The translations under genes and the position numbers were made by a program. The notes beneath the pieces are model-generated. The model saw only the letters and a program-made list of their open reading frames with translations, did no database searches and was not told the DNA's origin. A stretch of 50,019 nucleotides of DNA from a bacterium (lineage in GTDB: Bacteria > Pseudomonadota > Alphaproteobacteria > Rickettsiales > RI-342), in the NCBI GenBank assembly GCA_016124905.1, contig WGMV01000006.1, positions 74,157 to 124,175 of the forward strand, in the 5' to 3' direction. Of this stretch, positions 16,450 to 34,104 are shown piece by piece. How positions within the stretch are numbered: the stretch's first letter is position 1; every line of letters starts with the position of its first letter.

Positions 16450-17445
16450 TTAAGCGGCGCCGCTAACACTGGAAAACCGCGCCGGCGAAATCTTCGTGGA
16501 CACATCCGTATCCTCCACCGCCGCGCCCACGCTATTGGCTGTCTGCTGAAGCGATTCGCTGCTCTGGTAGGCCATGTTCTTTTTGTTCATGTCCTCTTCC
16601 AGCTGCTTGCGGAGCGCTTCATTCACGCGCTCGATCTTCAGGCTGCGCAGCAGCTCGCGCACTTCTTCACGCGCGGCGATGTGCGACAGGTTGAGGGAAA
16701 CGCCGGACTCGGCGCGCACCACGTCGATCACCGTCAGGCCCTGCAAAAACAATTCGCGGAAGATCACCCGCTCGCTGAAGCCCGGCGCCAGGCGAAAGCC
16801 GATGCGGCGCGAGAGGCGCTCCAGCACATCCATCACGCGGCGCTTGTTCTTGGCATCCAGGTTGCTCAGGCGGTTGCGCATCACGATCCAGTCCACGCCG
16901 CCGCCCTGGTTCTTGGCTTTCATCAGCTTCTGCTCCCACAGCATTTCGCTGTAGATGCTCGGCTTGACGATCTCAAACGTCTCCGGGTTCACCTGCGCCA
17001 GCACATCCATATCGATGAAACTGTCATTGATAGGGGTGATCACCGTGTCGGCCATGCTGTGCACCAGGCGCGACATATACTGGTCCGAGCCGGGGCAATC
17101 CACGATGATAAAATCATTATCGAGCGCCAGCTGGGTGAGGGCTTCCGTCAGGCGGTTGCGCTCGTCCTCCTCGGCGTCGTCCAGATGGTTGAAGGGCGAA
17201 CGGGCAATCACCAGATGCTGCGGGATGGGCAGTTTTACGCCGTTTTTGAACACATGCTGGCGGCGATTCTCGAAATAGCGGGAAAGGCTCTTCTGTCGGG
17301 AATCCAAGTCCACCGTACCGACGCGAAAACCAAGGTCAAGCAGGGCGGCAACCAGGTGCACGGAGGTGGTCGTCTTGCCGCAGCCGCCTTTTTCATTACC
17401 AATTACAATGATATGCGACTTGATGCCTTCCCGTGTGGTAAGCAT
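16450..17445 (-). CDS. mipZ: division-plane positioning ATPase MipZ
   Basis: A 331-residue ParA/MinD-superfamily ATPase. In Caulobacter, MipZ forms a gradient from polar ParB and blocks FtsZ assembly near the poles. The deviant Walker A is GNEKGGCGKTTTSVHL (MipZ usually has GGAGKST), followed by the switch VGTVDLDSRQKSLSRYFENRR and Walker B-like FIIVDCPGSDQYMSR. Features specific to MipZ are PINDSFIDMDVLAQV, PSIYSEMLWE, DWIVMRNRL and FRLAPGFSERVIFRELFLQGLTVIDV. There is a ~60-residue C-terminal extension. ATG 17445 is preceded by AGGG; a longer frame to 17514 exists. It is divergent from sdhC. Confidence 0.92.
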   Translation of the reverse strand: MLTTREGIKSHIIVIGNEKGGCGKTTTSVHLVAALLDLGFRVGTVDLDSRQKSLSRYFENRRQHVFKNGVKLPIPQHLVIARSPFNHLDDAEEDERNRLTEALTQLALDNDFIIVDCPGSDQYMSRLVHSMADTVITPINDSFIDMDVLAQVNPETFEIVKPSIYSEMLWEQKLMKAKNQGGGVDWIVMRNRLSNLDAKNKRRVMDVLERLSRRIGFRLAPGFSERVIFRELFLQGLTVIDVVRAESGVSLNLSHIAAREEVRELLRSLKIERVNEALRKQLEEDMNKKNMAYQSSESLQQTANSVGAAVEDTDVSTKISPARFSSVSGAA

Positions 17446-17589
17446 TGATTTGCCCTGTTTTTGACTGAAAATGAAACGCACGGCAAACATGGCATGAATC
17501 GACTTTCGAGTCAAACCATCCGCGTTAGTGATTCATAAATTTTTTTGCTGGAAAAACACATGCCGCATGCGTAAGTTCCGCGCAGGCAG

Positions 17590-17624
17590 CTTAGAGCCAT
17601 TCTAAGTTTTAGTATCATTCTAAA
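17590..17624. promoter_or_regulatory. two tandem Irr-type iron control elements (ICE) before sdhC
   Basis: Two 17-bp inverted repeats lie one base apart, 18 bp centre to centre. Site one (17590-17606) is CTTAGAGCCATTCTAAG; site two (17608-17624) is TTTAGTATCATTCTAAA. Against the ICE consensus TTTAGAA-N3-TTCTAAA, site one matches 11 of 14 fixed bases and site two 13 of 14. They end 17 bp before sdhC and also lie 145 bp upstream of divergent mipZ. Irr represses iron-using genes in iron shortage, which would fit an operon coding for haem and Fe-S proteins. Confidence 0.7.
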
Positions 17625-17641
17625 CAACTGCGAGGACATGC

Positions 17642-18064
17642 ATGGGCCAGCCATCCACCAGCGCCGGGAAATCACCGAGACCGCTTTCCCCGCACATAGG
17701 TATCTACCGCTGGCAGATCAGCATGACCCTTTCCATCCTTCACCGCATTTCCGGCGTTGCGCTGGCTGTGGGGCTGATTCCGCTAACCATCTGGCTCTGG
17801 TCGGCCGCCTATTCGCCCGATTGCTATAACAATCTCGTGGCGGCTTTCGCGCATCCCGTCGGCCGTCTTTGCCTGCTGGGCTGGACGCTGGCTTTCTATT
17901 ACCACCTATGCAACGGCATCCGTCACCTTTTTTGGGATGCGGGCAAGGGCTTTTCCATCCCTGTCATGACCAAATCCGGCGTGGCGGCGGTGCTGGTGGC
18001 GCTGCTCATGACCATCGGCACCTGGTGGTGCGTTTTCAACCATGCAAACACGGGAGCGATGTAA
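17642..18064 (+). CDS. sdhC: succinate dehydrogenase cytochrome b556 subunit
   Basis: A 140-residue membrane anchor of complex II with three helices. The N-terminal family motif RPLSPHIGIYRWQISMTLSILHRISG holds the Ser and Arg residues near the quinone site, and HLCNGIRHLFWDAGKG carries the haem-ligand His. It is first in sdhCDAB and its TAA overlaps the sdhD ATG by one base (ATGTAATG). The likely operator is directly upstream. Confidence 0.95.
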   Translation: MGQPSTSAGKSPRPLSPHIGIYRWQISMTLSILHRISGVALAVGLIPLTIWLWSAAYSPDCYNNLVAAFAHPVGRLCLLGWTLAFYYHLCNGIRHLFWDAGKGFSIPVMTKSGVAAVLVALLMTIGTWWCVFNHANTGAM

Positions 18065-18447
18065 TGCACCTGATGACCCCGCTCGCCCGCGTTCGCGGCC
18101 TAGGTTCGGCAAAATCCGGCGTTCATCACTGGTGGGTGCAGCGCATCAGCGCGCTGGCTATCGTGCCGCTCGGCCTTTGGTTTATCTATTCGCTGCTGCA
18201 CATGGTCGGCGGCGGCCATGCAGCCATGATCGGCTGGTTCGCTTCCCCCTTTAACGCCATTGGCATGGCGCTGCTGATGTGGACCATGTGCTACCATGCC
18301 TTTCTCGGCCTTCAGGTGATTGTGGAGGATTACGTCCATTGCCATCTCACGCAGACGGCCTCCATCATCCTCATCAAGTTCGTTTCCTTCCTGCTGGCTG
18401 CGGTCAGCGTTCTCTCCATCATCAAAATGCATCTGCTCGGCGCATAG
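18064..18447 (+). CDS. sdhD: succinate dehydrogenase hydrophobic anchor subunit
   Basis: A 127-residue three-helix anchor. It begins MHLMTPLARVRGLGSAKSG and has the SdhD pattern HHWWVQRISALAIVPLGLW, followed by a helix with YHAFLGLQVIVEDYVH, whose His is a candidate haem ligand. The open frame continues far upstream in sdhC, but the ATG at the sdhC stop is the natural start. Confidence 0.94.
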   Translation: MHLMTPLARVRGLGSAKSGVHHWWVQRISALAIVPLGLWFIYSLLHMVGGGHAAMIGWFASPFNAIGMALLMWTMCYHAFLGLQVIVEDYVHCHLTQTASIILIKFVSFLLAAVSVLSIIKMHLLGA

Positions 18448-18456
18448 GGAATCATC

Positions 18457-20244
18457 ATGAGCTACAAAATTATCGATCATGAATACGACGTTGTGGTGAT
18501 TGGCGCGGGCGGCGCAGGTTTGCGCGCCACGCTCGGCATGGCGGCAGAAGGCCTGAACACGGCCTGCATCACCAAGGTATTTCCCACCCGCAGCCATACG
18601 GTGGCAGCGCAGGGTGGCATCAGCGCCGCGCTCGCCAACATGGGCGAGGATGACTGGCGCTGGCACATGTATGACACCATCAAAGGGTCCGACTGGTTGG
18701 GCGATCAGGACGCCATCGAATACATGTGCCGCAACGCGGTGGATTCGGTGATCGAGCTTGAACATTACGGCGTGCCTTTCTCCCGTACCGAGGCTGGCAA
18801 GATCTACCAGCGCCCCTTTGGCGGCATGACCACCCATTACGGCGAAGGCCCCGCCGCCCAGCGCACCTGCGCCGCGGCCGACCGCACCGGTCACGCCATC
18901 CTGCACACGCTCTACACCCAGTCGCTGAAATACAACGCGCAGTTCTTCGTGGAATATTTCGCGCTCGACCTGCTGATGGACAGCGACGGCACCTGCATCG
19001 GCGTCATCGCCCTTTGCCTGGAAGACGGCACGCTTCACCGCTTCCGCTCGCACCAGGTGGTGCTGGCCACCGGCGGCTATGGCCGTGCCTATTTCTCCTG
19101 CACGTCTGCCCACACCTGCACGGGCGATGGCAATGCCATGGCGCTGCGCGCGGGCATTCCGCTTCAGGACATGGAATTCGTTCAGTTCCACCCGACCGGC
19201 GTTTACGGCGCAGGCTGCCTCATCACCGAGGGCGTGCGCGGCGAGGGCGGCTACCTGGTCAATTCCGAAGGCGAACGTTTCATGGAGCGTTATGCTCCCC
19301 ACGCCAAAGACCTTGCCTCGCGTGACGTGGTCTCTCGTGCCATGACGATTGAGATCCGCGAAGGTCGCGGCGTCGGCCCCAATAAGGACCATATCTACCT
19401 GCACCTGGATCACCTCGATCCGGAGATCATCCATGCCCGTCTGCCCGGCATTGCCGAGACGGCGAAAGTCTTCGCCGGGGTGGACGTGACCCGTCAGCCC
19501 ATCCCCGTGCTGCCGACCGTGCACTACAACATGGGCGGCATCCCGACCAATTATAAGGGCGAAGTGGTGACGCTGAAAAAAGGCAACCCCGATACGGTGG
19601 TACCCGGCCTGATGGCCATCGGCGAGGCTGCCTGCGTGTCCGTGCACGGCGCCAACCGCCTGGGCTCCAACTCGCTGCTCGACCTCGTCGTGTTCGGCCG
19701 TGCCGCCGCCAAGCGTGCGGTGGAACTGGTCCAGCCCGGCGCATCGCACAAGCCCGCACCCGCCAACCTGGGCGAGGAAGCCATCGCCCGGCTTGATCGC
19801 ATCCGCCAGGCCAACGGCAAATCCTCCACCGCCGAGATCCGCCTCAACATGCAGCGCGTGATGCAGAACCACGCCGCCGTGTTCCGCGAGGAAGCCGTGC
19901 TGAAAGAGGGCGTCACCCACATCGACAACGTCATGCAATCCTATCAGGACCTCGGCATCAAAGACCGCGGCCTCATCTGGAACAGCGACCTGGTGGAAGC
20001 GCTTGAGCTGGAAAACCTGCTGGTTCAGGCCGTCGTCACCATGCACGGCGCCGCCAACCGCAAGGAGAGCCGTGGCGCCCATGCGCGGGAGGATTACCCC
20101 GACCGCGACGACAAAAACTGGATGAAACACACCATTGCCTGGCTCAGTGACAAGGGCAAGGTGAAGATCGATTACCGCCCCGTGCACCTCTATACCCTCA
20201 GCAACGAGGTGAAACCGGTGCCGCCCAAAGCTCGCGTTTACTAG
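18457..20244 (+). CDS. sdhA: succinate dehydrogenase flavoprotein subunit
   Basis: The 595-residue FAD subunit that oxidises succinate to fumarate. It has the dinucleotide motif GAGGAGLRA, His47 in SHTVAAQGG for covalent FAD attachment, the substrate-site segments [24 protein letters not shown] and [10 protein letters not shown], active-site Arg region ASRDVVSRA, and [13 protein letters not shown]. The C-terminal region with the [16 protein letters not shown] motif is complete. A shorter paralogous sequence with the same flavin motif begins at 49152. Confidence 0.97.
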
Positions 20245-20255
20245 GAGTAAATAGA

Positions 20256-21041
20256 ATGGCTGAACTCCGTCTGCCCCGCGCCTCCCGCCCCGTTAAAGGC
20301 AAAACCGTCAAAGCCAGAACGGGCGCGAAAAGCGTCAAAAAATTCAATATCTACCGCTGGAACCCCGAGGAAGGCGGCAACCCGCAGATCGATTCCTTCG
20401 AGGTCGATACCGCCGATTGCGGCCCCATGGTGCTGGATGCGCTGATTAAGATCAAAGGCGAGATGGATTCCACCGTCACCTTCCGCCGCTCTTGCCGCGA
20501 AGGCATCTGCGGCAGTTGCGCCATGAACATCGACGGCACCAACACGCTGGCCTGCACCAAGGCCATCGAGGACGTGAAGGGCGATGTGAACATCAACCCG
20601 CTGCCGCACATGGAAGTCATCAAGGACCTCGTGCCCGACCTGACCCATTTCTACGCGCAATATCAGTCCGTTGAGCCATGGCTTCAGGCCGACACCCCGC
20701 CGCCTTCTGGCCGCGAGCGCCTGCAATCGCCGGAAGACCGCGAGAAACTAGACGGTTCCTACGAATGCATCCTCTGCGCCTGCTGCTCCACCAGCTGCCC
20801 GAGCTATTGGTGGAACGGCGACAAATACCTCGGCCCGGCAGCCCTGCTGCATGCCTACCGCTGGGCGGTGGACAGCCGCGACGAGAAAACCGGCGAACGT
20901 CTTGATAATCTTGAGGACCCGTTCCGCCTCTACCGTTGCCACACCATCATGAACTGCGCGAAAACCTGCCCCAAGGGCCTCAACCCGGCCAAGGCCATTG
21001 CGGAACTCAAAAAGATGATCGCGGTGCGTAAAGGCCTGTAA
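20256..21041 (+). CDS. sdhB: succinate dehydrogenase iron-sulfur subunit
   Basis: A 261-residue electron-transfer subunit carrying three clusters: [2Fe-2S] ligands in [15 protein letters not shown] with the later CTKA Cys, [4Fe-4S] in [12 protein letters not shown] and [3Fe-4S] with [17 protein letters not shown]. The N-terminus is basic. GGAGTAA precedes the ATG. The TAA stop is inside an exact 13-bp tandem duplication. Confidence 0.97.
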
Positions 21042-33776: not shown

Positions 33777-34104
33777 GCATCATGTTACAGCGCATTCTCT
33801 CATCATGCATATTCATCACGGTGTAAGCGGAAACATATGCGCGTTATGCACAAAGCGCGTGATATGAAATGCATTTTTTCCTGTGTGATAAATTTGTCTC
33901 TGGTCCGAGATAAAAAACGGCGAAAGGCACGGAAATGAAGGGGTGCAGAGGTTCATGCTGCGCTTAGAATCACTCAAAAGCGCAGAAAACAGCGTTTTTT
34001 TGCACATTTTTGCGGTTTTATGACAATTCGCCGCTTGATTTAGCGAAAAACGCTAGCTAGTCTCCGCCTTGTCAATGGTTTCACCCAAGAGAAAGGTTAC
34101 TACC
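33777..34104. other. lon-HU intergenic region
   Basis: About 330 bp with no credible gene. It is AT-rich. A possible HU promoter is TTGATT (34035-34040), 17 bp, TAGTCT (34058-34063); the spacer is itself a TAGCG-AAAAA-CGCTA palindrome. A weak ICE-like half-site lies at 33963-33979. Confidence 0.4.

Follow-up and report, generated by a model that had tools for sequence, protein, structure and literature searches.

The sdhCDAB locus and its two abutting ICE-like boxes

The window, i.e. the whole stretch of 50,019 nucleotides analysed here, comes from an uncultivated alphaproteobacterium and contains an sdhCDAB operon for succinate dehydrogenase (complex II), flanked by a divergently transcribed mipZ gene and preceded by two short repeats that resemble the iron control element (ICE) bound by the regulator Irr (Table 1). 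A single T at position 17607 parts box 1 from box 2, and 17 bp lie between the end of box 2 and the sdhC start codon, which places the boxes close to the beginning of an iron-using gene. This position at the sdhC start fits repression. No sigma-70 consensus promoter was found in 17400-17700; by eye, CTTAGA at 17590 might be guessed to form a weak -35/-10 pair, inside the two boxes, with TATCAT at 17613 (spacer 17 bp).

Table 1. Coordinates of the features of the sdhCDAB locus and of the two Fur-family genes of the same genome
Feature	Position	Strand	Basis and remarks
mipZ, divergent neighbour	16450..17445	-	PF09140, 357 bits; start codon 17445
ICE-like box 1	17590..17606	.	CTTAGAGCCATTCTAAG; 3 mismatches; matrix score 18.1, rank 2 in the window
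ICE-like box 2	17608..17624	.	TTTAGTATCATTCTAAA; 1 mismatch; matrix score 24.1, rank 1 in the window
Likely sdhC ribosome binding site, GAGGA	17632..17636	+	by eye
sdhC, cytochrome b556 subunit of succinate dehydrogenase	17642..18064	+	TIGR02970, 127 bits, cut-off 52
sdhD, membrane anchor subunit	18064..18447	+	TIGR02968, 80 bits, cut-off 42
sdhA, flavoprotein subunit	18457..20244	+	TIGR01816, 995 bits, cut-off 727
sdhB, iron-sulfur subunit	20256..21041	+	NF004616, 377 bits, cut-off 228
irr	contig C41, 552-971		IrrA model NF045678, 167 bits, cut-off 150; protein of 139 aa
Fur/Mur-type gene	L016 1399-1887		FUR domain PF01475, 134.5 bits; under every NCBIfam cut-off

The boxes were compared with the pattern TTTAGAANNNTTCTAAA (14 scored positions), which we take, as an earlier sequence-only reading did, to be the consensus of the Irr box. 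That reading had described two 17-bp repeats, one base apart, with 11 and 13 matches out of 14, and re-reading of the sequence returned the same counts. Overall, the window holds four sites with at most three mismatches, against a shuffle mean of 0.47, and none of 100 shuffles reached four. When the 197-bp mipZ-sdhC intergenic region was subjected to 20,000 dinucleotide shuffles, any site with at most three mismatches appeared in 2.4% of them and a site with at most one mismatch in 0.005%, while two non-overlapping sites (at most three mismatches) within 30 bp were never obtained (0/20000). The window has four tandem palindrome pairs irrespective of sequence, where shuffles have 1.85 on average and 7 at most, and because bare palindromicity is thus ordinary relative to shuffles, the unusual part of the boxes is their match to the ICE. 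As ICE matches, the boxes beat chance; the motif had been chosen by the sequence-only reading among many, so the bare shuffle odds are weakened.

The two boxes also constitute a direct repeat, in which 15 bp recur at a step of 18 bp with 80% identity. Their centres lie 18 bp, or about 1.7 helix turns, apart, so that two dimers would sit on different faces of the DNA; spacing alone suggests a putative cooperative binding at the two boxes. Among 385 genomes of the class, the tandem form with an 18-bp step was found in the genome under study only. A second, weaker ICE-like pair, also with an 18-bp step, occurs elsewhere in the same genome (G000 C3:46891-46925, equivalent to L160 1492-1526); it is AT-rich, with three mismatches in each member, and is flanked by a P-type ATPase gene and an ArdA-like gene.

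The repeats could also be read as a pair of RNA leader hairpins tuning sdhC translation or termination, and the predicted fold does draw both of them as stems. However, this fold has a z of -0.34, it is equalled or surpassed by 62 of 200 shuffles, and no terminator-like site was found in 17400-17700. Because the fold does not stand out from shuffles, the hairpin reading was rejected as highly improbable. The boxes had further been proposed to act on mipZ, linking iron state to division. This proposal gained no support: about 145 bp separate the mipZ start codon from the nearer box and, among 60 sdhC loci (flanks of up to 1.5 kb, the present locus included), mipZ adjoins sdhC in the present locus alone. 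Since the neighbour pair is not kept, mipZ was discarded as a target.

Irr proteins and the ICE pattern as a guide to Irr sites

The genome (2.36 Mb in 47 contigs, 95% complete) encodes two Fur-family proteins. The search for an irr gene was successful, as one of the two exceeds the cut-off of the IrrA model (Table 1), while with the sister Irr model NF045677 it reached 159 bits, under the cut-off of 170. In an alignment with 13 other Irr proteins its key residues are intact, namely an Irr-type recognition helix and the complete HHH (HxH) heme motif; the same alignment revealed no N-terminal Cys, hence the protein is without the Bradyrhizobium-type N-terminal heme regulatory (Cys-Pro) motif. 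According to excerpts of PMC7762939, the HxH motif is present in all characterised Irr proteins, the N-terminal heme regulatory motif is not in every Irr, and it is heme-free Irr that binds the ICE. The 20 matches of this Irr to solved structures are of Fur, PerR and Zur type only, and none of them is named Irr. No ICE box was found within the 551 bp upstream of the irr gene itself.

Irr over the model cut-off is encoded by seven of 88 genomes of the order, distributed over families f1, f4, f12 (two genomes), f26 and f29 (two genomes). The sole other sampled genome of the same family (G001, 81% complete) gave no Irr match, and Wolbachia has been described as being without Irr (PMC4199550, in part). 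In a tree completed with the 80 proteins that best matched the Irr under study, a biased sample, the seven proteins of the order grouped under midpoint rooting (support 0.86) and no longer grouped when the tree was rooted with the Fur of the same genome. Five ATP/ADP translocase genes were detected in each of six f11 genomes, and none in the genome under study; six f19 genomes (1.1-1.5 Mb) gave neither an ATP/ADP translocase nor an IrrA match. Rickettsia possesses five ATP/ADP translocase genes, and Anaplasmataceae are expected to be without both the translocase and IrrA; on these grounds the order is probably Rickettsiales.

The usefulness of TTTAGAANNNTTCTAAA as a guide follows from its marking places beside irr genes. 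In 80 named irr loci (493 kb), sites with at most two mismatches were found in 10 loci, compared with none for the reversed pattern, and sites with exactly three mismatches numbered 11 for the ICE and 5 for the reversed pattern; the other 70 loci had no site of at most two mismatches. All ten sites lie 399-517 bp past the start of the irr match. A rubrerythrin open reading frame beside the ICE site was plain by eye in three of nine inspected irr loci, and was confirmed in both of the two that were tested; the Irr targets known in Bradyrhizobium include a rubrerythrin-like gene (PMC3413700, in part). Within the order, rubrerythrin/MbfA-type genes (PF02915) were found among the seven Irr-bearing genomes only in G012 and G026, the genome under study having none. 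A matrix was built from 11 irr-linked sites, nine from named loci and one each from G012 and G034, the two of the seven Irr-bearing genomes of the order with an ICE (at most three mismatches) before irr. When the matrix was run over all 17-mers of the window, the two boxes took the first two places; training sites score 19.6-27.0, with box 1 a little under all of them. On this scale the scores of the boxes resemble those of ICEs found next to irr genes in other loci.

Further ICEs were noticed in Irr-bearing relatives. In particular, G004 carries a perfect ICE upstream of a peroxiredoxin gene (L178 1501-1517), overlapping the likely -10 of that gene (TTGACA, 17 bp, TAGAAT), which makes this site well suited to a test of Irr repression within the order; other ICEs precede a lipoyl synthase gene in G026 and a peptide deformylase gene in G012.

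A genome-wide scan for the ICE 17-mer, suggested by the sequence-only reading, disclosed no excess over the reversed pattern in the genome under study, whether at most three mismatches (55 vs 60), at most two mismatches (11 vs 10) or a shorter core (22 vs 49) were considered. Delineation of an Irr regulon by counting ICEs genome-wide was therefore dropped.

Post hoc, ICE-like 17-mers were noted before three DNABII genes of this genome (L002 1501-1517, L005 1501-1517 and window positions 33963-33979): a site with one mismatch about 166 bp upstream of ihfB (named by eye and by PF00216), one with two mismatches 12 bp upstream of ihfA, and one with three mismatches 90-125 bp upstream of the HU gene, depending on which start is taken. 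The sequence ATGTTTAGAACGATT is common to the sites of ihfA and ihfB, and the HU-gene site falls within a TGCGCTT...AAGCGCA hairpin after lon and may be part of a terminator. It is rather improbable that Irr has been rewired in this probable Rickettsiales branch, free-living by look, with the double ICE tying complex II to heme status and the ICE-like boxes of the three DNABII genes tying nucleoid proteins to it; were it so, one heme sensor would set both respiration and chromosome organisation. Finally, an ICE-like site with three mismatches and perfect TTAGA/TCTAA arms (L161 1493-1509) lies about 70 bp upstream of a gene of the YqcI/YcgG family (PF08892).

ICE sites in sdhC upstream regions of other genomes

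Besides the present one, 138 sdhC upstream regions were compared: the order supplied 31 and the class sample 106, and that of G308 was included because G205 had a site. SdhC matches were obtained in 83 of the 88 genomes of the order and in 315 of the 385 of the class, and the regions were taken from the higher-scoring ones; a few matches too close to the end of a contig were passed over, and certain regions have little upstream sequence (170 bases in G291, 237 in G001). The stretch searched was the last 150 bp of each region, ending 30-50 bp inside the SdhC match, and genomes were counted as Irr-bearing when their best IrrA match fell below E 1e-30, which takes in a few below the model cut-off.

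A site with at most two mismatches was found at the sdhC start in 3 of 106 Irr-bearing genomes and in 0 of 32 others, a difference not significant by itself; at up to four mismatches the counts were 4 and 2, respectively. The remaining 103 Irr-bearing genomes have no site of at most two mismatches before sdhC. On the other hand, three such sites among 138 regions compare with a shuffle mean of 0.115, and none of 200 shuffles reached three. The three belong to G205 and G308, both of family f147, and to G026, a member of the same order as the window. In per-region shuffles, the G308 site was never equalled (0/5000), and the corresponding values were 0.7% for G205 and 0.5% for G026, whose site is AT-rich and weak (score 15.4). 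Family f147 thus has a single ICE before sdhC in both sampled genomes, both with Irr. An ICE at the sdhC start is rare, yet above chance, and occurs also in a second lineage.

Conservation of the box before sdhC in close relatives, as expected by the sequence-only reading, was not borne out: of the six other Irr-bearing genomes of the order, five are without a box and the sixth, G026, provides the one weak case. This comparison is a weak test of conservation, because most near relatives are without Irr.

These results bear directly on the alternative that the boxes arose by chance or are a plain AT-rich promoter, in which TTCTAA and TAGTAT resemble ICE half-sites and bind no regulator. Such a reading agrees with the absence of a genome-wide ICE excess, with the boxes not being kept in relatives, with the second loose pair of 18-bp step, with the selection of the motif from many candidates, and with the sequence CTAAA, which by eye is common at the likely -10 of sdhC in other genomes of the class. 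It does not readily account for a pair seen in none of the shuffled regions, for the top two matrix scores of 50 kb, for the presence of irr in a genome of an order where it is rare, or for the independent single boxes at sdhC in f147. Taking both sides together, we regard chance or a plain promoter as unlikely.

Probable Irr control of complex II and known iron regulation of sdh

The two boxes are probably Irr operators that lower complex II in iron shortage. Direct observation covers the two boxes and their ICE match above chance, the sdhCDAB operon, and an irr gene in which the key residues are intact. From these we infer Irr binding, the direction of control, heme sensing and any gain from two boxes. 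In such a mechanism, heme would become scarce at low iron and heme-free Irr dimers would occupy both boxes; bound Irr would cover the sdhCDAB start region and block transcription, sparing the iron otherwise spent on the Fe-S clusters and heme of complex II. With plentiful heme, Irr would be released and sdhCDAB expressed. The claim of the sequence-only reading that Irr shuts down complex II in low iron is favoured by the presence of irr, the ICE-like scores and the position at the sdhC start, and is weakened by the box not being kept in relatives. Repression as such is uncertain, because Irr, whose box position sets repression or activation, activates more commonly than Fur does (PMC7762939, in part).

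The Fur/Mur-type protein, the second Fur-family member encoded in the genome, could bind the boxes instead, as could a regulator of another family. An AATnATT centre is common to Fur and Irr boxes, which speaks for this, but Fur boxes have TGATAA arms, and the two boxes are without these and carry TTAGA/TCTAA arms as in irr-linked ICEs. Even with a Fur/Mur-type gene in the genome and with Caulobacter Fur acting positively on sdh (PMC3751524, in part), we consider a regulator other than Irr decidedly improbable.

No direct Irr-sdh operator was found in the open-access papers covered by the search; an earlier prediction is possible, the main regulon study being outside this search. If the boxes are Irr operators, direct Irr control would gain complex II as a target and would reach an order with few Irr-bearing genomes (7/88), the parasites of which are noted for the absence of Irr, and the 35-bp element would offer a compact means to ask whether two abutting ICEs sharpen the iron response.

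Iron control of sdh is already known, via Fur and via small RNAs. In E. coli, the small RNA RyhB places sdh under iron control. The small RNA NrrF does so in Neisseria (PMC5586341, in part). Like the Irr operators proposed here, NrrF and RyhB entail less succinate dehydrogenase in iron shortage; they are RNAs under Fur, whereas here the candidate is a DNA operator. In Caulobacter, another alphaproteobacterium, expression of sdhCDAB is Fur-dependent and falls both in iron limitation and in a fur mutant (PMC3751524, in part). The lower sdh in iron limitation is the likeness; in Caulobacter, however, Fur acts positively, while here a repressor-type Irr box lies at the start site. The closest systems are those of Bradyrhizobium, Rhizobium, Brucella and Rhodobacter, in which Irr acts through ICEs on iron-handling or iron-using genes (PMC7762939, PMC3413700, PMC10374146, all in part); the Brucella Irr DAP-seq paper makes no mention of sdh (PMC10374146). 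The box type, the regulator family and the position at a gene start are the same in these systems and at the present locus, which differs from them in having complex II as its target, two abutting boxes and a host order where Irr is rare.
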